Origin: Parietaria judaica
Taxonomy: Eukaryota > Streptophyta > Magnoliopsida > Rosales > Urticaceae
DNA length: 64,000 bases
NCBI GenBank assembly: GCA_954871525.1
Contig: OX940861.1
Location: 41,305,201 to 41,369,200, forward strand
Direction of reading: 5' to 3'
Positions 9,593-60,878 of this stretch are shown here, one piece after another. Made by a program: the position numbers and the translations under genes. The notes under the pieces were generated by a model that was given only the letters and a program-made list of their open reading frames with translations, did not search any database and was not told the DNA's origin. Position 1 is the stretch's first letter, and every line of letters begins with the position of its first letter.

Positions 9593-10830
9593 CTAGAGAT
9601 GCATTTTTTGTGGTTCGACGTGTTTTAACTTTGTGCGCGTTATTTGGTTCACTTTGTCCCTCTCAAGTAGACCTCTATTATGCAAAATCTTCAAGCCTTT
9701 CTCACTGACGTGCCTCAATCTCTGATGCCAGAGATTTGCCTTGTCATTTGAGCTTGAAGTAGGGCAGGCAGAGTTCTTCTTAGCAATACTGCCCTCGAGA
9801 AAATAAATCACATTGTATCTGTAGGCCTTTAGATACACCATAGCTCCCTTAGTTACCTTAGAGCCTCCCGGAATTGACTTCCATTGATAACCTGCTTGTC
9901 TCTTAAGTCCGGGAACATACCTCACATCTTCAAGCTTCCTGTAGGTCCCATCTTTAAGCTTTAGGGTGAGTGATCCCTTCCCTTGCACTTGGCAGATCTC
10001 CTCGGTCCCAGTCGCCACATTTCCCCCATTTGGGGTGTCCTTGAAAGTGTCAAACCATCCCTTGACATGGCACATGTAAAATGAGCCACCAGTGTCAAGT
10101 ATCCAAGCATCCCTCATGTTCTCGGGGACAGAAACACGCAGGACCTCTGCACTTTCATAGACATCTTGGCTGTGAGAGACATTTGCAGAGTCCTCCATGT
10201 TGTTCTGTCTCTTTTGAAAACCCTTGAACATCTTCTTCTCTGGGCAGTCTCTCTTGAAGTGTCCTTCCTTGTGACAATTGAAGCACTTCAAGCCTACCTT
10301 TCCCCAGGACTTTGACCTCGACTGTGGCCTGCTTCCATAGCTCTTCCTAGTATGTTGTCTGCCTCTTGTCACTACGCCTTCTCCATGATCTGGCTTGACA
10401 TTGGCTTTCTTATTAGCTTTGAGTAGATTGCCTCTATAACTTGATTCATACTGAGAGTCTCCATTCCTAGAACTAGGATGTCATAGAGATCCGGGAGAGA
10501 CCCTAAAAGCAAGAGGGCCTTGTCTTCTTCTTCAATCTTGACTTCACAGTTTTCTAAGCCCAAGATGATCCTCTTGAAATCATCATAGTGATCTTCAAAA
10601 GTTTTCCCGTGTGGCATCTTGAAAGAATACAACCTCTTATTGAGAACCAGTCTGCTTGATAGGCTTTTCTTCGAATAAAGCTCATCAAGCTTCTCTCAAA
10701 TTCCATGGGCAGTCTTCTCGTGTGAGATTTCCCTTAGAACCCTGTCATATAGGCTCAGTACTAGTGCACTATGTGCCCGAGAGAAGATGTCTTTCTTATT
10801 TTCTGTAGAGGAGAAGGTTGGCAAATCCTT
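9593..10830 (-). pseudogene. Ty1/copia retrotransposon gag-protease remnant (antisense, truncated)
   Basis: Read on the minus strand, 10830 to about 10632 gives the middle of a copia gag (RAHSALVLSLYDRVLREIS), followed by KMPHGKTFEDHYDDFKRI and the LLLGSLP motif. A zinc knuckle CFNCHKEGHFKRDC (CX2CX4HX4C) follows near 10275. A retroviral-type aspartic protease active-site motif DTGGSFYMC lies near 10080, where most family members have D-S/T-G-A. A GAG-pre-integrase segment (LWHQRLRHVSEKGLKIL) ends the fragment near 9640. The frame is broken: a TGA near 10697 stands where related gags have a conserved Trp (HGI-stop-ERL), and a second stop separates the gag and knuckle parts. Integrase, RT and RNase H are absent. 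The gag N-terminus is cut off at 10831 by an LTR insertion. It is a dead element. Confidence 0.85.
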
Positions 10831-38249: not shown

Positions 38250-38631
38250 TATATTAATGGGCTTATTAATAAAATACTCAATTAGAGTCAAACTATTTCA
38301 AAAAGATACTCAAAGGTTTGCTATAATTAAAGAAAACCTCATTTGGGCTGTTTAGGACATATATACCCTCTTCTTTCTTTTCAGTCACGTTCGATAGGCT
38401 TCGTCTTCAATCCTCAGCGCTCGATCACGGCTTCTTCCGCCATTGTTGTTCGACTCTTCTTCCACCATTGTTGTTCAACCAAGTTCAACGAACCGCGATT
38501 GTCGTCGCAGATCGATGGCTGTGATTTCAAGCACGGAGTTAGAGTTGAAAGAGCGAAAACAATCGCTCTCCATCACTGTCACTGATCCCAGAGGCGGGAA
38601 AGAGAGAGCAAGCTTTCTTCTCTGCGCAGCA

Positions 38632-39454
38632 ATGGCAGCTCCGACGGAAGAGACGGCGATGCCGACGGAGGACTTCGACGAGGAATACGACGAGCACGGC
38701 TCCAAGGAGAAGGTTCTCCAGAAGTACTTCCTTCAGGAGTGGGAGCTCGTGAAGTCCCTCTTGGACGACATCGTTTCCATGGGAGGAGTCCCTAATCCTT
38801 CCGTCACTCACAAGATCCGATCCATCTTACTCTCTCTCTTTCTCTCTCTGTGTGCAATTATATCGGTTTCGCTTTCGATGTTGATGGGTTTACGTTACTC
38901 TTTTGTTTCGGTTATGAAGCTTTATGTTGGATCAATAGGCTTAATTCTGAGATTTAGTTGTTGATTTGTGAATTTTTTTCGTTAAAAACTTGATCAAAGT
39001 ATACGAATTTGTTCAAATCGAACTATAAATGGAAACAAATTACTTAGAATTCTAGTTTTACAGACGATTTCTTTTGCATATTGAGGGACAGGGATCAAGA
39101 GCACGAAGTTTGATGTTGGATCAATTTGCTAATTATGAGATTTAGTGTTTGATTTGTTCAAACTTTATACAAGCAGACAAATTTATTCAAAATTAATTAG
39201 AGTTGTACTGTTAATGGTTGCAGAATCATGGAATTTCTATGTATTTGTGTGTGATTTTATAGATGGACAAGTACCAATAGCAAGGGCAGCTCATTGAGCC
39301 TTACTTGGAGAGCATTGTGTCGCCGCTGATGTTTATCGTCCGGTCCAAAACCATTGAATTAGGCGTGGCTTCGGGGAAGATTCTCGAAGTAATCAAGCCT
39401 ATTTGCATAATCATTTATTCCCTGTTCACGGTTTGTGGGTACAAGGCGGTGATC
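38632..39454 (+). pseudogene. Tubulin-folding cofactor D fragment captured in the Pack-MULE
   Basis: Segment 38632 to about 38829 encodes the N-terminus ([20 protein letters not shown], then [17 protein letters not shown], ending HKIRSI). After an intron-like stretch an AG at 39261 precedes a second exon reading [19 protein letters not shown], then IVSPLMFIV, ending VCGYKAVI. This is the start of plant tubulin-folding cofactor D (TITAN1/CHAMPIGNON type), a large protein that helps assemble alpha/beta tubulin. A TAG interrupts the second exon, and no GT stands at the expected end of the first exon. Only about 130 of more than 1200 residues are present. It cannot make the cofactor. The retained intron shows capture from genomic DNA and not from mRNA. 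Confidence 0.85.
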
Positions 39455-39461
39455 TCGCGTA

Positions 39462-39640
39462 AATCTCGTCAATGTCTGGATCGAATACTCCGGGTCGGGC
39501 CGGGTCCTGAACGTGTCGGTTTCGTATTTGAATATGAAGCCTAGTGACCCGGTTCTCTCCGTGCCGCTCGATATCGAAGAGTACGTCGCCGATTTTATGT
39601 TCGTCGAATTCTCCGGCTTGACGCAGGGGAGCACGGAGAG
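39462..39640 (+). pseudogene. L-type lectin-domain receptor kinase fragment captured in the Pack-MULE
   Basis: An open frame reads [20 protein letters not shown], then [13 protein letters not shown], then FMFVEFSGLTQGSTES. This is the C-terminal half of a legume-lectin beta-sandwich as found in L-type lectin receptor kinases; the FSGxTQGSTE motif fits the LecRK-S.7 group best by memory. No transmembrane or kinase part follows. It joins the cofactor D piece within about 10 bases, so two unrelated genes abut. It is a sense-strand fragment on the same strand as cofactor D but in a separate frame. Confidence 0.8.
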
Positions 39641-39642
39641 TA

Positions 39643-40430
39643 CATTGGGTAACTGGGGTTACACTTATGTAACTAAAGTTACATTTGGGTAACTACAGTT
39701 ACACTTATGTAACTAAAGTTACATTGTGGTAACTACAGTTACACTTGGGTAACTGCAGTTACACTTATGTAACTAAAGTTACTAAAGTTAAATTTGGGTA
39801 ACTACAGTTACACTTGGGTAACAAGAGTTACACTTATGTAACTAAAGTTACATTTGGGTAAGTATAGTTACACTTGGGTAAATTCAGTTACACTTGTGTA
39901 ACTAAAGTTATTAAAATTACATTTGGGTAACTACAGTTACACTTGGGTAACTGCAGTTACACTTATGTAACTAAAGTTACTAAAATTACATTTGGGTAAC
40001 TACAGTTACACTTATGTAACTGGAGTTACACTTATGTAACTAAAGTTACTAAAATTACATTTGGGTAACTACAATTACACTTGGGTAACTGCAGTTACGC
40101 TTATGTAACTAAAGTTACATTTGGGTAACCAAGTTACACTTGGGTAACAAGAGTTACACTCATGTAACTAAAGTTACTAAAATTACATTTGGGTAACTAC
40201 AGTTACACTTGGGTAACTGCAGTTACACTTACGTAACTAAAGTCACTAAAATTATATTTGGGTAACTACAGTTACACTTATGTAACTGGAGTTACACTTA
40301 TGTAACTAAAGTTACACTTGGGTAACTGGAATTACATTTATGTAACTGGAGTTACACTTATGTAACTAAAGTTACATTTGGGTAACTACAGTTACACTTA
40401 TGTAACTAAAGTTACTAAAGTTACATTTGG
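39643..40430. repeat. Minisatellite of GTTAC...GTAAC units inside the Pack-MULE
   Basis: About 790 bp of roughly 20-bp units alternating GTTACACTTATGTAACTAAA and GTTACATTTGGGTAACTACA variants. Every unit pairs GTTAC with GTAAC, so each can form a short hairpin. Variants with an extra TTACTAAA recur every third or fourth unit, which implies expansion of higher-order blocks. It separates the lectin fragment from the ISY1 fragment. Confidence 0.92.
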
Positions 40431-40431
40431 G

Positions 40432-40782
40432 GACGTCGACGATGTTGCCGTCGAGGTCGGTCATCTTGGAGGAGTGCTTGGCGTAGTTGGCGCCGCCGAG
40501 CTCGACGATGCGGCGCTCCCAGTGGGCCTTCTCGCGGATGAGCTTGTTGATCTCGTCGTTGAGGTCACAGAGGCAGTGCTCGCCGAGGCCCTCGTTCTGG
40601 ATCTCGGCGACTTTGCGGCCGATCTCGCGGAGGATCTGCTGGCGCCACTTGTCGGCGTCGGCGAGGTCGCGGCACTCGGAGGCCAGGAAGGGGCGGCGCT
40701 CCTTGGGCTTCTTCTCCTCCTCCTCCTTCATGGTGATGAAGCGGTTGAGCATGGACTGTACTTTCTCCTCGTTACGAGCCAT
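40432..40782 (-). pseudogene. ISY1 splicing-factor N-terminal fragment captured in the Pack-MULE
   Basis: From the ATG at 40782 the minus strand reads MARNEEKVQSMLNRFITMKE, then RRPFLASECRDLADADKW and KMTDLDGNIVDVP. This is the near-complete N-terminal third (about 117 residues) of ISY1, a conserved spliceosome protein of the NineTeen-complex-associated group. The frame is open but then runs into the minisatellite, where the family would continue NPSG and a YRYFGAA-type block. One conserved Arg-rich position reads GEHCLCDLN where relatives have Arg at both Cys sites. Sequence upstream to about 40850 looks like captured 5'UTR. Loss of the rest argues against normal function. Confidence 0.88.
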
Positions 40783-41148
40783 GGTCGCCGGACTGGTCGG
40801 AACTCCGGCGAAGGTTCTGGTTCGAAACCCTAACTAGGGAATGGGGGAGAGATTGGCGAAGAAGACGACTCTGTGAGTGGGCTTTTTGTGGGAGTATTTT
40901 TGGAAAATAATCTTTAAAATGAGTATGATTTGGATTAATTAAACCTTGAGTATTTTTTGAAATAGTTTGACTCTAATTGAGTATTTTGCTAATAAGCCCT
41001 ATATTAATTACTTAATCTGATTATGTATCATATTCAAATTATGGACCTCGATACAACTGTAACAACATATCAAGCCTAATAAATTCGTATAATCATGCTC
41101 AAAAACACATAATATGAAAAAGGTGGGCGTGTCAAGAAAAACACAAGC

Positions 41149-41253: not shown

Positions 41254-41283
41254 AATGTCTCAATCCATCGGAATTAGAAGATG
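41254..41283 (+). promoter_or_regulatory. Upstream ORF whose stop overlaps the main start codon
   Basis: An ATG at 41254 opens a nine-codon frame (MSQSIGIRR). Its TGA shares bases with the main ATG in the overlap ATGA at 41281-41284. This arrangement can tie translation of the main frame to termination and re-initiation. Confidence 0.5.
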
Positions 41284-41948
41284 AGAAGCCTGAAAGAGAA
41301 AGATGGAGAATTATCATCCAAGAAATCACAGGGTGATAAGACCGCTGAGAGCACTGGAGTTGGCCAGGGAGAGCTCTACTCCCCGGAGTTTGCTCGAAAG
41401 CTTTCCGACGACGACGGCGGCGGCACGATGATCAGCTTGACGGCGCTGAAGGAGAGGCTTCTGGCGAAGCTGTCGGCGGCGGCCGTGCCCGCCGACGCGC
41501 TCGAGGGCGCGCGTCGCATGCTGGAGGGCATCGTCAGGGACGTCTCGGGGGCGGCGCAAGCGCTGTCCAAGGACGCGCTGCAGCGCATCAAAACGCGCCT
41601 CCGCGACGTCGTCCCGTCGCTCTCGCCCGACGTCGCCGCTAAGGTATCATCATGTTCGCAACGTGTTTTGTTGAATTATAATTTATAATTAATGTTGTTC
41701 AAGATTATAAAACTATATTATAAACTTGAGAAATGTTTTCTTTCGCTACTATAGAATTCTCTTGAAGAAATTTATGTGTAGATTATATGGAATACTTAAT
41801 TATTTGGAGTGAAAAGTAAGAAATTAAGAGGTTGATAATGTTTTGTTTGTTTATGCATATGAAGATGGTGGAGGAGGCAGAGAAGGAAACAAACAGTACA
41901 AGTAGTAGTAATATTGAAGATGATCATAAACCATCTTCAAGGCTTTGA
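41281..41948 (+). CDS. Small uncharacterised plant protein, helical and alanine-rich
   Basis: Two exons, 41281-41643 and 41865-41948, join in phase across a GT-AG intron and give 148 aa. The N-terminus is charged and polar (SLKEKDGELSSKKSQGDK), the middle is a run of likely amphipathic helices (LTALKERLLAKL, RRMLEGIVRDVSGAAQAL), and the C-terminus is acidic and serine-rich (EEAEKETNSTSSSNIEDD). No family was recognised. The alternating charged and alanine-rich helices and the two G-boxes upstream would suit a stress- or seed-expressed protein, but that is inference. There is no signal peptide or membrane span. The exon is GC-rich compared with its flanks. Confidence 0.7.
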
Positions 41949-51917: not shown

Positions 51918-54900
51918 TCAACTGCCGTTGTTAAGCTCGGCAGCTCTCTGTCTCATCATCTCCATCACGGCGGCTCTTCTCCGCGAGTCTGACTGTTGTT
52001 GCAGCCTTCTCAAGTGTTCTTTCAGATCCCTATAAGAACAAAAAAAAAAATAAGTCGTGAGCAAATAGCACATTGATTCTAACACCAAGAAACTTGTACA
52101 TAGATACAAAAAACGAACCTGCAACGTGGGACATGGCACTCGGATTCCTTGCAAGCACGGGCGTGAAGTTGGAGGAGGTACCACATTCTCTTGCAGAGAA
52201 CGCAGCCACCGGAAGCACGGACTTTGCATTGGATTCCATGGCGGAAGAGGCCCTTCACCTTGCGACAGTTGGGGTACTGACACTGGGCTGATCGGCATTG
52301 CGATGCGTGCACCAGAAGATCCAGCATTTTCCTCAGCTGAAGAATAATAATAAAAATGGGATGAGAAGAGGAATATGGAACAAACTCCGCTCCGTTTAGA
52401 GATAATTGGACATAGTTACGAGGCAATGACATTGGCAAGGTGAAGGTTACTTAGAGTAAAAATCTTGTAATGAACATGGTGTTGCGCAATTCAGTATCTT
52501 AATTCCTACCAAAAAGACTATCACATGCTTATACTATAAAGGTAACGGAATAGAAAATAAGCGAGTTAGAAGATGAAAAATAATCACCAAGGTGATGATT
52601 ACCGGATACTTCATTCTTGCAACAATGATAAATAAAAAAAAAAAAAAAAGGACCGTTCCTTCACAAGAACACGGCCGAGACTCTCCAAACGATGTCTTAT
52701 GTCAATTTGGACAAACAAAACATAAAACGGCTCTAAGCCCTAGGCACCAATACAAAGAGAGATTACGGTTTCCTGATCTCTAACTTATAGCAAGCTACAT
52801 AATAACCAAACACAGATGATCTCGGAACAAATTAAAGTAGATACATAATACGTACCTGCTGAACTCTCATTTGCCTGGCCTCTTGGTTCTGTGCATCCCG
52901 GTCGGCGATGGAGGGATGGTTAGTCAACTTATGAGGATGCTGAGTGTTGCCTTCTTTCTGATAGCAAGCATTGCAAACGTCGTAATCAGAGCAGACTTCG
53001 CAGCGCCATCCTTGGCCGCTCTCAATATCCAGGTGGCACATGTTGCACGTCGTCACAAATGCAGGCGCCGTTGGGTTGTGAAGATGGTAAAGCACCATCA
53101 TCGAAGAATGCTTCGCCCGCCGCAGCGTGTCGTACTGGTAGTGATTGCCTTGGCACAGACTCAAAAACGCCTGTCTCGTGTCGAAGAATTCGCTCTCCAA
53201 AATCTCGTCTTTGTCCTTCGTATCTTCAGGTACGTTGATAATATCCACCTGCATCACATTGTGAATGCTCAAAAATCGAGAATAAATTCAGAAGAAAAAA
53301 AATAGAGAGAAAGAAAAATAAGCATACTGGGTGAAACGAATGTTTATCCCGATGGTTGACAGGGTGTCTCTCTCTTTCTTCACGTCTCTGCTCGATTTCA
53401 TAACACCTGCAAGCGGAAACCATGTTGTTTGAAATATGGAAAGACAAGCAGTGGAAACTGTAGAAATGTGTAAGTTACGAGTATTTTGTATTAGCAGTTA
53501 TATATAATTAGTTTTTGTAACTATAGGCTATAGCTAATAAGATGGGTTCATTTTGTTTAGGAATTAATTAGAGCTAATTCTTAATAGCATCGCTCATTAG
53601 CTTTACTAGTGCATAAGATGTATTTTCCTATTACTGAATAATATCAATCAAACAGCTATTCCATTATCTACAGAAACGAAATGGAATACGATTTGCAAGA
53701 AAAAATACGATATAGATTTGCTGCAAATTCATAAAGTTCCAAGGCAAAATAAAAAATGGCACGTCGCAGCGAAGATTGGAGTCGTTACTACTCTTTGGTG
53801 CATCTGGAATACTCGCAACAAATTCCTCTATAACGATATATCGTGGAATCTGAATGGGTTGATAGATGATATCAACTATTGTATGGCCCTTTGGCCTTTT
53901 TCCTCGTGCAACGATTTCACGATGTATTCTCTCGCGGACCTTTCAAGAGATTGGGCTGGTACCCTTTAAGGAGTAGTCCTCGTTGTTTTCTCTTTATGGT
54001 AGAGTTATGGTCTACATAGCCAAACCGATTGTTGGAATAGTTGATCGAAAACCATTCTCTAGCCTTGTATTGTAACTTATTTATATTAATATAATCGATG
54101 TTTCTTTTAAAAAAAAATTCAAAGAGCTTGCAACTAAATCAACTTAATAATCTAGTAGAAGGAGAAAAGAAGAAGGTGAATGGTTCGCTTTCAAGCAATA
54201 TTCAAAATTGAAGTGAGTCCTTACTTGTCACATAGCTGAAAATTTTTGCATTGATCACAAGCCCAGCGAGTTCCGGACACCATTAGAGTACAACAGTGAT
54301 TGCAACAGTGCTGAAGATGAACCATTATAAAGTCCTCCTTCATTGGGCTTATAGTTTCACCAAGCTGAAAGAAAACTTATTAGCCCCAAATCATATACAT
54401 ATATATGTAGACACCGAGTGAGGAAGATTGAGGAAATTACTTTATGCATCAGCAGCAGATCCTTCGAGGCGTTACCAGATAGATCTAACTGACCAGAGGC
54501 TTTAAGAGCCCGTTTTGTCATTGTCTTCTTCATTGAACCTTTCTTGTTCAGCTTTCTTCCGTCTTCTTCTTGACGAAACTGATAAATAAAATCCTCTGCA
54601 GCGCCGGGCCAGTAATCGCCATCAAAATATGGCAGCCTTGATGCAGTCACCTTGGCCTTGCTTTCACCGTTCGATACAAAGAAATGGTCATATAGATTAG
54701 TGAGTTCGACCACAATATTCTCCTTTGCAGCTTTCCTAAGCATTGCTAAATACCTACAATTGAGACATTCATGGATGTGAAATTCCTGAATTATGAGAGT
54801 ATGGTATTATTATTTTTTAATTGAAATCTATCCCATACTAGGCCCGTACCAATTAATAAACTAATTGAATAAAAAAACAGTTAAAAGAAACTAAAAATTA

Positions 54901-57900
54901 AAGAAAATATATATGAGATGCAAGTGATATTTCAACAGAAAGAAAAGACTGGAATAATTTTAACACTAAGAAAATTTAACAGATTCTCAAAAAGACGGGA
55001 ATAATTTCAACACTAAGAAAATTCAACAGATTCTCAAAATATTGGGCTCACCACTCCCGGAGCTTGTCAGATTTGGGTGTTTTCTGAATTTCTGGATGAC
55101 AGTACAATATGTAGTCTTCACCCTTCAATGGAGGACAAGCCCATATATAACAGCTCGTGTAACCCCGGACTTTGCAATACTCAAGGTAACCAATCTGAAA
55201 AGTTATTACGTATCGACAGAAGCACCGTCAGAAAAGTTTCAGAGAACTAAACACAACGCAAATAACAAATAAGAAAAAAGAACTTACCAAAATTTCATGA
55301 TAAACAAATGTACGGAGGGCCTCTCCGCTAACTGCTTTGATCTCAGGTCTAAAATACTTCACGGAATCGAGATAAGAGAGATAAACACGGCGCTGATTCG
55401 GATAGTGGACTTCAGATCCAAATTCTTGAACGTACATGCCAAATAGACATACTTCTACACCTTCAATCTTCTGGAACAATAAAACAACCTAGATAGAACA
55501 CGTTAAAAATGGAAACGTGTCATCCAATGTGATATCCTCAAAATAAAACTTACTTTCAAGTATTTAAGAAATGTTCAAAGTACGAAGATGAATTATCATA
55601 TTTCGTCTCAAACCTTAGATTTATAAGGGAACTCTGTTGGATAATTCTCTTCCTGAAAAATTTCAAGAAATCGCGGCTTCACTTCTAATTTTTTGTCAAC
55701 TGAGGAAACAACTCTAACCACAAGATGTTCCGCTGTAGGAATCTGACAGAACCCAAAAAAAAAAAAGGATTAGCAAAACAAGAAAAAACTTTCACATCCA
55801 TGATAAACTCTTTTTAACATTTTCTTTTTTTTTTTAATTAAAAATATCTTTTCATCTTACTTTATACGAGAAAAAAGATAAATGAAACCCAGAATGCAGG
55901 AGCAATCAGCAGCACAAGCTCAGAGAATGGAGACAACGATTAATTTGGCACATTTCATTTGATCAAAGAAACATAGAACATCCAATATTCATATGCTGCC
56001 ATTTTAAAACTTCTAAGCGTTATTTCTACATATATGAACGTAACTATCAGTGAGAATTAGGAGTAATCCCAATATTCTTCATAAAATAAGAATATAATGT
56101 GCAACTCTAAATTATCTTGAATAAGAGCAAACCAAAGAGTATAGAATAAAAATCGGCGCAAATAGGAGCTACGCTTAATAAATATGCTCTGTAGAAATTG
56201 TTAGCCTATCAACAAAGACAACCAGCTCCAACATGATAATTGAGAAGCATTAGATCTCTCAACATATAAATAACAACAGCAATGAAAATAAATACATTAA
56301 AAAGTTATAAGCAAGTGCATAAGAAAATAAGTTTATAACATCAGACTTTCAAATAAAAGGATGAAGAGGAATACCTGGTCAATGGGTTTCCCCAGAGCTT
56401 TTGCCCTTTCCATCCTCTCCTGCTTCAATCTCTTGAATAAACGGTTTTCAATTTCGTCACTGAGTTTAGTTCTTGGCAAATCTTTGGCTCCAAGAACAGC
56501 GCTTTGTGGTAAAGGCTTGCGCTCTCCCCTTTCAACCTCACCAATGTAGCAGTTAGGGCAAGTGTACTCAGCTTGGCCACCATCATTCCTCCGCCCGTTA
56601 AATAAAGCACAAATTTGATGCTGCCAAGCCTCACATTTGTCACATTGGACCCACTGCGAACACAAATTTATGGCTAAGTTGAGAAAAAATATACGTGACA
56701 AAGCAACAAATTAAATAGCAGTACGGAACACAGCACAACTACACACCCATTCCTCAGTTTCCTCGTCATTTTTCTTCTTTTCCAGCCTTGTTTTTGGAAT
56801 AGTAGTCCCGTCAACACTTATAGTGTCTCCACGAGGTTCGTTGTGGCATTGAATGCAAAAGTAGTGACGAGTATCTCCAGCTCCCACGCAATAATACATT
56901 GCATTCCTTTTTATTCTACCACCGCAAGGTGTACAATAAATTGGTGGGGGTTCAAAAGTAAGCTTCTCCACTGCGCACAGCTGGCACGAATTTTCACTCA
57001 TCGAGTGTTCCATAGCTTGATTCTTCTCTGCTTTTGCTTTACTCTGTAAAAAAATGCGTTATCAGGAATGTATAGCTCAAAGAGGTTTTGATTGTAGCTT
57101 CACTGGCTACAGATTCAGAAAGTGTTCCTTTGAATGTCTAATAAAACCAGTCCCTACATGTCTAAGCGGTACTATCGTGATTTCACTTAGATGGAGGATA
57201 TTTTAGACTACTGAATGTACTAAATTTAAGTTTTTGACTTCCCCAAAAAGCATAAAAACAATAGTTGAGGATAAAACATACCTGGCCTACCCACTGTCGC
57301 AAACCATATATGTGCTCTCTAACTTGCTCAGGTGTAAACAACTCAGTCAATGAAACCCCTTTTATCTTTGGTTTGCCAGACTTTGTTCCAGATGTCTGCT
57401 CTCCAGCAGGCTGCGTCACGATTTCTTGCTTAGCTGGTTCAATCTCTTTAACATCTTTAACTTCTTTAACATCTTTAATATCTTCCTGGTGAGCTAAACC
57501 AACAGGAGCTTGATGTGCATCAGGAACTTGGTTATCAAGAATGAGCTCTTTTTTCAACTCAGCCATAGTCTCTTGCACAGAGCTTGCAGAAACATCTCGC
57601 CTCATGTCTGTCGGCTCAGATTTGATCAGCACACCGTTCTCAACTGCCTGAAGCTCTTGATGTCTATCATTCTGCAACAATGGGATGTCACCCACAGCAG
57701 AAACCGAAGCAGCGTTGCTTTGATTGTCAGTATAAAGAGCCTGCGGGGTCTGATCTATCTTAATCCTCTTTTTAGACGGTTTTATCTCTTCTGGAACTTC
57801 TACCAGTGAAGCCTTTGGAATTATCAATCTCGGCGCCATGTCTCCATTATCAACGGATTTAATAGATCCATTCACTGAACTCGGCAGAACAGAATCATAA

Positions 57901-60878
57901 GCCAGACGATTCCGTGCCTTGGTGACTTGTCCATCAATAAATGCCCTCACTGGAATGCACACAGGGCAACATGAGTCGTTGCAACTCTTGCTATGGTGAA
58001 CCAACCTCTTGCTTTTCAAACAATGAGGATAAGGACAGCTGAGTGATTCACATTTCTCGATGTGTTTCCACAAGTTTTGCACCTTCGGACAATTGACTTC
58101 CATACACCTTCCATGTGGAGCCACACACTGACGAGCATGTCGCAAGAATAAAAGCCATCTCTGTTGATTCCGAAAGTCTTTCTTAGCCTCCATGTTAGAA
58201 GATTTACTCACAACGCTCGGTGCATGTAGAAGATGAGATTTACTTCTAGAAGCAGCAGTTTGGTCAACAAGAGAAGCTTCTGATGATAAATTATTGCGCT
58301 GAGCTTCATCCAGCCCCGATATTCTTTGGCGAAAATCTTCTTGCAAATGCTGATCATTTGATACATTACTCTGTCTATTACTCCTCTCTTCAGATTGAGA
58401 ATACCACTGACTCTGCAATAAGGAATCTGGCTGACTTCCAACAGCAACACAGTTAAAATCATTTTGAGTCTCCGCGGTCGGCTCATGGCTATGTATCATA
58501 TGTTGCATTGGCTGGGAAGTTTGAGAGAGAGGCGAGCAGATATCTTGCTGATCACCAGAGGAAATGGTTACATGTTGAGCACGCCTCAAATGGTCATCGA
58601 CAGAGACAGAAGAGTTCTGGAAATGATTCTGCATGTCAGACATTTGAAATTGCTCCTGTGCTTGAGACGGCATCATTTGACAGTGCTTGCTGAGATCAGA
58701 AGCCAGCTGAGAGTGACCAAAGGTGTCGTTATTCGCCAGGTGAGTTTGCTGAGCATGTAGTTTCAGCTGCCGTTGCTGGTGAGCAAACGATTGATGGTGC
58801 TGAAACTGATTAGCCTGTTGTTGTTGCTGATTAGGATGCATCGTGCTGTCTCTCATAGAGACTGAAGATTGAAAGCTCATCTTCTCCATTTGTTGCTCTG
58901 TCGATTGAGGCTTCATATGGACACCCTGTTGCTGTTGCATATGCATATTCGACTGATTACCCATGAGACTGGAGCTGGTTTTGGGTACAGGTGACAGATT
59001 AACTGAATTCACATTCTGAGGATTCGTCATTAATCCAACTGAAGTTGCAGACCCATTATAGTTGCCGGTCCCATAAGCATCAACATTGGTTAACCCATAG
59101 GCATCACCTGATAATAATAAAAAAATCAGAACTCCTCTCGGTAAATTTTTTTTTTTTTTTAACAAGGGAAGAAAATAGAGATTTCAATGCAAATCTAGAT
59201 ACATGCAAGAGGTAACCGAGGTAAAGGCCGTGGAGAGATGGAGAAAGCGGGGGTACCTTGCATAGCTGGTCGTTGATGTTGGTCGAATTGATGCTGTTGT
59301 AAGGGTTTAGATGAACTCACATAAGAAGAGTTGGTCAGATAGCCCTCCGAGGTTCCATGTTCATTTACAGCAGGTAAGTTGCTGTTGCCAATCAACCCTA
59401 TCCCACCATTAATAGCTCCATTAGAGAAACCATAGGATTTCTGCTGCAAATTAGACCTTATTCCACTTCCCATTTGACCGCCAAGATTGTGCAATATACG
59501 GCTGTTCTGACCACCAACGTGCTGCTTTTGCGGTTGAGACTGAGACACCATAGTCGTTTCAACAGTGGAAAAACCGCCACCATTGCTTGAGGATTCGAGG
59601 TTTCTGTAAGACTGATTAGAATTGCTACCAAACCCTGGAGTAGGAATCATGTGGCTAGTGACCCTTTGCACATTCATTGACGACATATTTCCTCCCGAGC
59701 CAACAGAAAAGTTGGCAGGAGACTGCTGATAACCATTTGACACTGAATGCACAAACCGAAATTATGACATGGGGCTAAAAGAACAACGGAATTGCAATAA
59801 ATAAGATCAGTTAATTAAACTTACCATCGTTTCTATTTAATGAACCCCCAGGTAAGCCACCAGATGGCAGTATGTTTCCACTGTTGACATTATTATGTGC
59901 AGCGCTGTTAACTCCACCTGAAGGAACCATTGAAGCATCGACAGAGGAGCTAACCATCATGTTAGAAGCCCCACTATGTTGCATGCCAGGAGTTGGTATC
60001 ATTGCACCCATAGGAAGGGGGTTATTATTGACAAGCTGTGTAGCATATTGTTGGTTTTGATTATTCACCGAAGGCCGCTTAATTAGATTCTGCATACGGA
60101 TCTCTAATGTGTCCAGGTTCATGTAATCCTCCTAAATTAAGATTAAAACAGAATCACGACAGGCTGAAATAATAAAAGGAACGCAATGAAAGCATCTCTG
60201 TTCCTATGCCATAATTACAAACAAAAAAATACATGGAAACCGAACCAACCTTTGAAGTAGAAAGTCTATATAAACCCTCCTCTAAGCGCCTAACGATATC
60301 CTTAAACTTCTTCTTCTGCATATCATTAATAGGCTGCGAATGCCGATGAGGCTGAATAACGATTTCATAACTGAAAGGAGACCAAAATTGAGCTCATGAG
60401 AAGTAATACAGTGTCAAATTAGTCAGGAAATAGACTTGCATATTATAAACAGCATACTTCCACAGTCAAAGCTGTCTTATTTCAACAAGTTAGTCTCTTA
60501 TACACTGTGTTTCCAAGAAATATAAAGAAAAAACTATTTAATTATCATAGGAAAATGAGTAAATGCAATTAGATCTTGAATTAACAGTCAAACAGCAACA
60601 CACTCGATAATATTTATGCTGCAAATATAGTTCAGAAGGTCGTGGAATTATACGGCATACATGAAGTTGAAGAAAAATTGTGAAGTCAACTAGTCAAGAG
60701 GCATTAATAACAGGTAAATAAATTGATCTTACATCTTCTCGAGCATGAGATGACGCGTTCGGATATCAATATCATGACGAGCAGGACCACCTAAGGTTTG
60801 CATCTGGGGAGGCATAACAGGCAACTGTGCACCTGCCTGATTAGATACCTTCCCGGACATGTGCGCCTGCACATTCAT
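51918..60878 (-). CDS. HAC1: HAC1-like histone acetyltransferase (p300/CBP type)
   Basis: Sixteen coding exons join in phase (1729 aa): 60878-60733, 60370-60250, 60131-59825, 59742-59257, 59107-57282, 57043-56747, 56653-56375, 55742-55614, 55488-55288, 55194-55052, 54753-54441, 54364-54225, 53406-53328, 53248-52856, 52336-52119, 52029-51918. Domains in order: Met/Gln/Asn-rich N-terminus with poly-Gln; TAZ1 zinc finger (about 666-741, RHARQC ... [10 protein letters not shown]); PHD finger (about 1062-1100, [15 protein letters not shown]); KAT11 acetyltransferase core (about 1155-1410, [36 protein letters not shown]); two ZZ fingers (about 1435-1475 and 1558-1605); TAZ2 (from 1621, [15 protein letters not shown]). 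Plant HAC proteins acetylate histones H3 and H4 in the nucleus and act as coactivators in flowering and hormone pathways. The symbol is by family; HAC12 or HAC5 types cannot be excluded. Confidence 0.95.
53650..54115 (+). mobile_element. 5'-truncated LINE remnant in an intron of the HAC1-like gene
   Basis: On the plus strand, opposite to the host gene, a frame runs to 53969 and reads [20 protein letters not shown] then [10 protein letters not shown]. This resembles the C-terminal zf-RVT/RNase H-end region of plant LINE reverse transcriptases (W-x-I-W-x-x-RN motif). A 3' tail follows with TGTATTGTAACTTATTT and a run of A at 54107. The intron (53407-54224) still has proper splice sites. The 5' edge and target duplication were not resolved. 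Confidence 0.6.

Follow-up and report, generated by a model that had tools for sequence, protein, structure and literature searches.

Pack-MULEs, reportedly the subject of Jiang et al. in 2004, are a family of elements which leave target-site duplications (TSDs) of 9 bp. Helitrons leave no target-site duplication and possess no terminal inverted repeats (TIRs). The element examined here lies in a stretch of 64,000 nucleotides of Parietaria judaica DNA (the window) and is referred to as the window copy. It has both a TSD and TIRs, unlike a Helitron.

Like the Pack-MULEs and Pack-TYPE elements of rice, maize and tomato, as portrayed in the cited passages, the window copy has TIRs, lacks a transposase and carries genomic gene fragments (PMC8903248, PMC3310237). 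According to the same passages, the fragments of Pack-TYPE elements sometimes come from several loci and the elements are often multi-copy, as is the case here (PMC8903248, PMC3310237). Two features depart from the Pack-MULE literature to the extent that it is cited: the minisatellite that these elements share at their centre, and the low similarity of the two ends (59–78% over 41 bp) in 15 relatives with the array. Among the matches listed from the open-licence PMC literature, titles and abstract openings name no Pack-MULE family with a central minisatellite.

Arrays of a comparable kind are described for the VANDAL MULEs of Arabidopsis, which carry non-coding tandem arrays of a short motif bound by VANC (PMC5735166, passage cited); the MULE-type elements here likewise hold tandem arrays of a short motif in their non-coding part. 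VANDALs encode VANC (PMC5735166, PMC10398659), and VANDAL MULEs with VANC-bound tandem repeats are also presented in the second source, in the part considered here (PMC10398659). VANDALs are called non-TIR MULEs in the relevant passage (PMC13317346), whereas TIRs are present here; the array unit GTAACTrnAGTTACAyTTrk likewise differs from the VANC21 motif YAGTATTAY given for VANDAL. Of the VANDAL traits, tandem non-coding arrays are found in our elements and the absence of TIRs is not. The Rehavkus MULEs, in the text cited, are also of Mutator type with a 9-bp TSD and a minisatellite; however, they belong to arthropods and annelids and their minisatellite lies ‘in Cterm’, whereas the present one is central, between host-gene pieces (PMC6446971).

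The window copy and its captured gene pieces

The window copy extends over positions 38259–40999 (2741 bp; Table 1). A first-pass annotation of this DNA had proposed inverted ends of about 60 bp and an exact 9-bp flanking duplication. The ends align over 61 and 59 bp with two mismatches and two one-base gaps, and the duplication is identical on both sides. The window contains two matches to a 31-base end pattern, against 0 expected from 100 shuffles. In the 538.7-Mb assembly of the same plant, a 41-base end pattern occurs 95 times at three mismatches or fewer, and its reversed control 0 times. The assignment to the MULE class is based on the inverted ends and the 9-bp TSD.

Table 1. Features of the window copy (positions in the window)
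Feature	Position	Strand	Details
Left TSD copy	38250–38258	.	9 bp, TATATTAAT
Left terminal inverted repeat	38259–38319	+	61 bp
Cofactor D piece	38485–39454	+	Upstream sequence, exon 1 (38632–38826), intron 1, part of exon 2 (begins 39263)
L-type lectin receptor kinase piece	39463–39638	+
Minisatellite	~39640–40427	+	36 units, mostly 20 bp, some 29-bp variants; bounds approximate
Deletion scar	40426–40427	.	Roughly 1 kb internal, TTGGGG microhomology; joint read against A, D, F
ISY1 5′ end	40427–40865	-	CDS 40432–40782, 117 codons open
Right terminal inverted repeat	40941–40999	-	59 bp
Right TSD copy	41000–41008	.	TATATTAAT

The element had also been described as lacking a transposase. Its long open frames are gene pieces, and a Pfam search with four pieces returned no transposase. 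MULE transposase genes are present in the genome: 150 of 723 candidates were scored, all of them over the cut-off. None of those scored lies near the window copy, and none is closer than 20 kb to any of the 95 TIR sites or of 38 sites with an array or ISY1 piece, so that no autonomous partner emerged among the scored candidates.

Several neighbouring features may be mentioned. An open frame without a Pfam match (41281–41688) starts about 270 bp past the element, and the element may thus precede a gene at short distance. A nearby acyltransferase frame has its best named matches in Parasponia, Ulmus and Humulus (70–74%), which suggests a host in the Rosales. A retrotransposon polyprotein remnant (Pol_BBD, gag_pre-integrs) at 9593–10231 is presumably of Copia type. 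Frames of a TAZ zinc-finger protein at 52832–59686, with the Pfam-matched frame at 57186–59030, we take to encode probably a HAC-type histone acetyltransferase.

The three host-gene pieces named in the annotation were recovered on the strands it had assigned to them (cofactor D and lectin plus, ISY1 minus), ISY1 and lectin by Pfam and cofactor D by a PDB chain and its DNA parent. Parent genes, which the annotation had suggested seeking in the host genome, were found for cofactor D and the lectin receptor kinase, and two for ISY1. The two cofactor D exon pieces have no Pfam match, the piece resembles the PDB entry for chaperone D (E 2e-4) and its DNA matches locus L014 on C6 at 87%. L014 diverges from the window copy beyond both breakpoints, where its own sequence, read over part of its length, continues. 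The intron is retained, which indicates that genomic DNA and not mRNA was copied. The splice donor is TT in all four copies of the piece (the window copy and copies A, B and C below) against GT in the parent. An in-frame TAG in exon 2 (39278–39280) is confined to the window copy; exon 1 of A and B holds a different TAG, and C has neither.

The lectin piece matches Pfam Lectin_legB (E 2.3e-09) and is 95% identical to L055 on C6, whose 527-aa open frame is cut by the end of the fetched stretch. In L055 a lectin region is followed by a kinase-like region, presumably a kinase. A second candidate parent lies on C7 (93%). The ISY1 piece (Pfam E 1.4e-51) runs on into the array as a 136-aa frame (40372–40782). 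Its parents, L043 on C5 and L044 on C10, have 301 codons each, the ISY1 copies are 95–97% identical to them, and the stretch searched around both genes holds no family end sequence. Annotations in Malus, Mercurialis, Cornus and Persea include short ISY1-like proteins (123–186 aa), in a search admitting query-like lengths only, and ISY1 pieces may be duplicated in other species too. The minisatellite, the TAG at 39278–39280, the changed splice donor and the deletion scar are additions to the first-pass annotation.

Related elements and the central array

Five more elements with both ends (A, B, C, D and F) hold parts of the content of the window copy. In A, B and C, cofactor D, lectin, array and ISY1 follow in the same order, while in D and F an IPT-like piece replaces cofactor D (scanned in F: Pfam IPT E 0.0003, with 20.7 bits just over the cut-off of 20). 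The TSDs are exact in the window copy and C, and agree at eight of nine positions in D and F. A and B (L009 and L010, C5:8572984–8588479) are separated by about 8 kb, point in opposite directions and show swapped TSDs: the left one of A equals the right one of B (TAACTTAAT), and the right one of A equals the left one of B (TTTATATTA). These exchanged duplications point to an inversion of roughly 8 kb between two inverted copies.

Further copies with the same ends had been suggested as a check; the five related elements and the 95 genomic end matches supply them. The same gene order outside any element had been named as an outcome speaking against the annotation; the order occurs three times more, each time bounded by TIRs. 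The annotation had called the combination probably undescribed; it belongs to a multi-copy family rather than to a single event, and multi-locus Pack-TYPE elements are already described in the cited passage (PMC8903248).

The window copy is the shortest of the six: about 1 kb between array and ISY1 is missing relative to the five longer ones. At least 48 pieces in the genome match the ISY1 arm. Those listed include the six elements, both host ISY1 genes, another partial match on C10, the additional long copies L041 and L042, and twelve shorter pieces of ISY1 that extend into end sequence. A mosaic origin of the window copy was considered and dropped: a placement next to D and F, then C, then A and B fits both halves, an ordering which is our reading of the alignments with one arm replacement in D and F, and not a tree. 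Another element with the same right end was noted at L056 (1511–5863), with an exact TSD (TTAATACAT) and frames of more than 100 aa; its array cores number only five and lie close to one end.

Minisatellites of this kind (GTAACTNNAGTTAC arrays) recur inside other gene-carrying MULEs. We analyzed 20 further array loci, which are part of a genome listing and not a random sample. A 23-bp probe, allowed as many as seven mismatches, served to locate the ends, with one base-shuffled version per locus as control. The left end was found in 19 of 20 loci and both ends in 15 within the stretch; addition of the adjoining stretches (L015, L016, L017), and of L051 for L032, raised the latter to 19. The shuffled controls gave four single-end matches in all, and in L018 the probe found no ends. 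Exact 9-bp duplications flank 12 of the 20 and duplications with one mismatch two more, counts that are somewhat favoured since the end-pair score includes the duplication and those of L026 and L034 are simple sequence. In L016 and L019 a duplication fits or nearly fits, on our reading, if one end is shifted by a base; in L017, L020 and L021 the duplications do not fit.

Over 41 bp, the two ends are 59–78% alike in 15 of these array elements and 93–98% alike in the window copy, A, C and F; in the same comparison the printed 0.32 of B reflects a one-base offset, and the 0.83 of D a one-base insertion. At least 140 frames of 90 aa or more remain in the array loci after removal of array-like frames. 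Nine were scanned with Pfam: five matched (Myb-like, nodulin-like, FMN reductase/flavodoxin, legume lectin and, below cut-off, PPR), four had no match and none was a transposase. The lectin piece of L021 derives from a different region of the gene captured in the window copy, or of one closely related to it (92% to L055). Similar frames occur inside the array-bearing MULEs L028 and L016, and we take them to resemble geranylgeranyl diphosphate synthase; the scanned L028 frame has no Pfam match. The same holds for L019, L022 and L023, whose similar frames are presumably an AMP-deaminase-like N-terminus (scanned L022 frame without Pfam match). A special conservation of the palindromic core of the array unit was considered and dropped: spacer positions 15, 17 and 18 are equally conserved, and the claim is further weakened because the units were picked by core match.

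Re-pairing of gene-bearing arms

The ISY1 arm is partnered by a cofactor D arm, by an IPT arm and, in L032, where the ISY1 piece is partly deleted, by a flavodoxin-like arm. L021 and L025 have right arms with 96% identity along the 2.25 kb that lead to the array, but left arms that are alike only in the first 110 bp. L028 and L033 have about 500 bp of right arm in common (88%) and left arms that differ; a left gene piece of 265 bp recurs in L033 and L024, whose right arms differ. In L017 and L033 both arms are common, at least in part. Shared arms with different partner arms indicate that gene-bearing arms change partners. L016 and L020, both in 5′ cluster 1, have a similarity confined to about 180–225 bp near the end (71–80%) and were not counted as re-paired.

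Arms may have been exchanged through the arrays or by fusion of neighbouring elements. In L021/L025 the breakpoint coincides with the array or falls within it; in L028/L033 and L033/L024 it is located elsewhere. Exchange through the array predicts the pattern of L021 and L025, where the shared arm reaches the array, as masked, and the opposite arms diverge past the first 110 bp. Instead, neighbouring elements inserted in tandem may have fused and been re-mobilized by their outer ends, or arms may have been broken and rejoined at random, possibilities which together we rate just short of even. Fusion through tandem insertion has been proposed for Pack-TYPE elements in the cited passage (PMC8903248). 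Copy D has a second array at the end of its IPT arm, joined to the lectin piece and with units of mixed, mostly opposite polarity, as fusion would leave. The common stretches of L028/L033 and L033/L024 stop short of the main array, which also speaks for such a route. Similar arm pairs are same-side in 197 of 197 cases, and whole arms in 216 of 240, the cross-side ones lying near arrays. As proof of array exchange the former figure was set aside as weak, copies being counted repeatedly and ends looking side-specific.

Fate of the cargo and proposed history

In the five longer copies, the ISY1 piece matches parental codons 1–259 of 301 with in-frame gaps, followed by a foreign 19-aa tail, and its frame is open in all five (262–276 aa). 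The five indels are all multiples of three, by our count on the protein alignment. Such in-frame indels are rare under neutrality alone and may be explained by the sequence being rich in codon repeats. Among one-base codon changes for which the parental codon is still present among the copies, 25 are nonsynonymous and 13 synonymous (66% nonsynonymous); the neutral expectation is 66% in a deamination-weighted model (p = 1.0) and 72% in a plain one. Sites with the same base in both parents show 54 distinct changes, 40 of them C>T or G>A. Of these 40, 27 fall at CpG, a context that accounts for 219 of the 529 C/G contexts counted. The ratio and the CpG transitions are read together as neutral decay under methylation, and the ISY1 cargo thus appears to decay neutrally under what looks like cytosine methylation.

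One alternative regards the element as a regulator: transcripts started at the TIRs or at captured promoters would yield chimeric or antisense RNA, or siRNAs, and cofactor D, the lectin kinase or ISY1 would be expressed less. On both sides of the element the captured 5′ ends face its interior, so that convergent transcripts are possible; judged from the sequence, chimeric or antisense RNA from the element is possible too. The 95–97% identity of the ISY1 copies to their parents would suit such a role. Captured sequence in maize Helitrons, Pack-MULEs and Sireviruses is presented as an siRNA reservoir for donor genes in the passage cited (PMC13317346). However, the neutral ratio and methylation-type decay of the ISY1 cargo are those of a silenced element. 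The functional reading is weakened by this pattern, by the multi-copy nature of the family and because multi-locus Pack-TYPE elements are already described in the passage cited (PMC8903248), and we consider it unlikely.

That the long copies encode a functional truncated ISY1 with a new tail, kept by selection, is very unlikely. The five open frames and in-frame indels suggest it, as do the dN/dS of 0.19 between A and B and of 0.18–0.44 between copies and the two parents, although the latter range includes constraint on the host-gene branch. Against it, the 25:13 ratio equals the neutral expectation, pairs of copies reach a dN/dS of 1.07 (range 0.19–1.07, one pair undefined) against 0.08 for the host ISY1 pair, L041 stops after 166 codons, L042 is frameshifted and the window copy keeps 117 ISY1 codons only. 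Selection on the frame was rejected on the ratio and the broken copies. Tandem arrays are hard to assemble, but an assembly artefact or chance assembly of repeats is hardly credible in view of six separately placed copies, exact TSDs and parents elsewhere.

The window copy is very probably a non-autonomous Pack-MULE of a multi-copy family, later shortened by deletion, and its captured gene pieces are passengers in neutral decay. The label Pack-MULE given in the first-pass annotation agrees with the TIRs of MULE type, the TSD of 9 bp, the lack of any transposase seen, the parents found elsewhere for the host-gene pieces, and the further copies that have these ends. The elements record that they inserted with 9-bp duplications, captured genomic DNA, multiplied, had arms replaced, suffered deletion and took on the mutation pattern described, and the TSDs establish that the element transposed. 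An ancestor would have copied genomic pieces of cofactor D (intron included), a lectin receptor kinase and ISY1, which flank an array common to related gene-carrying MULEs. The transposase of another MULE, a presumed enzyme acting in trans, would then move the element via its inverted ends and generate the 9-bp duplications. The element occupies at least four sites, and a side lineage carries an IPT-like arm instead of the cofactor D arm. In the window copy, a deletion of about 1 kb at a microhomology and a new stop codon would have followed, its gene pieces being passengers under neutral decay and, probably, cytosine methylation.

For the central GTAACTrnAGTTAC array, a double role may be envisaged as a functional module of a two-armed, TIR-bearing MULE group: as a VANC-like docking array for an anti-silencing or transposase protein and as homology for arm swaps which make new gene-fragment combinations; we regard this proposal, drawn by analogy, as doubtful. 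Its anti-silencing part is speculative and modelled on the VANC-bound VANDAL repeats of the passage cited (PMC5735166).

A single genome thus holds many gene-carrying MULEs with a common internal array and different cargo arms, together with readable parents, rearranged relatives and insertion marks. This makes testable how Pack-MULEs acquire fragments of several genes, and whether an array in TIR-bearing MULEs may act in silencing escape, as reported for VANDALs.
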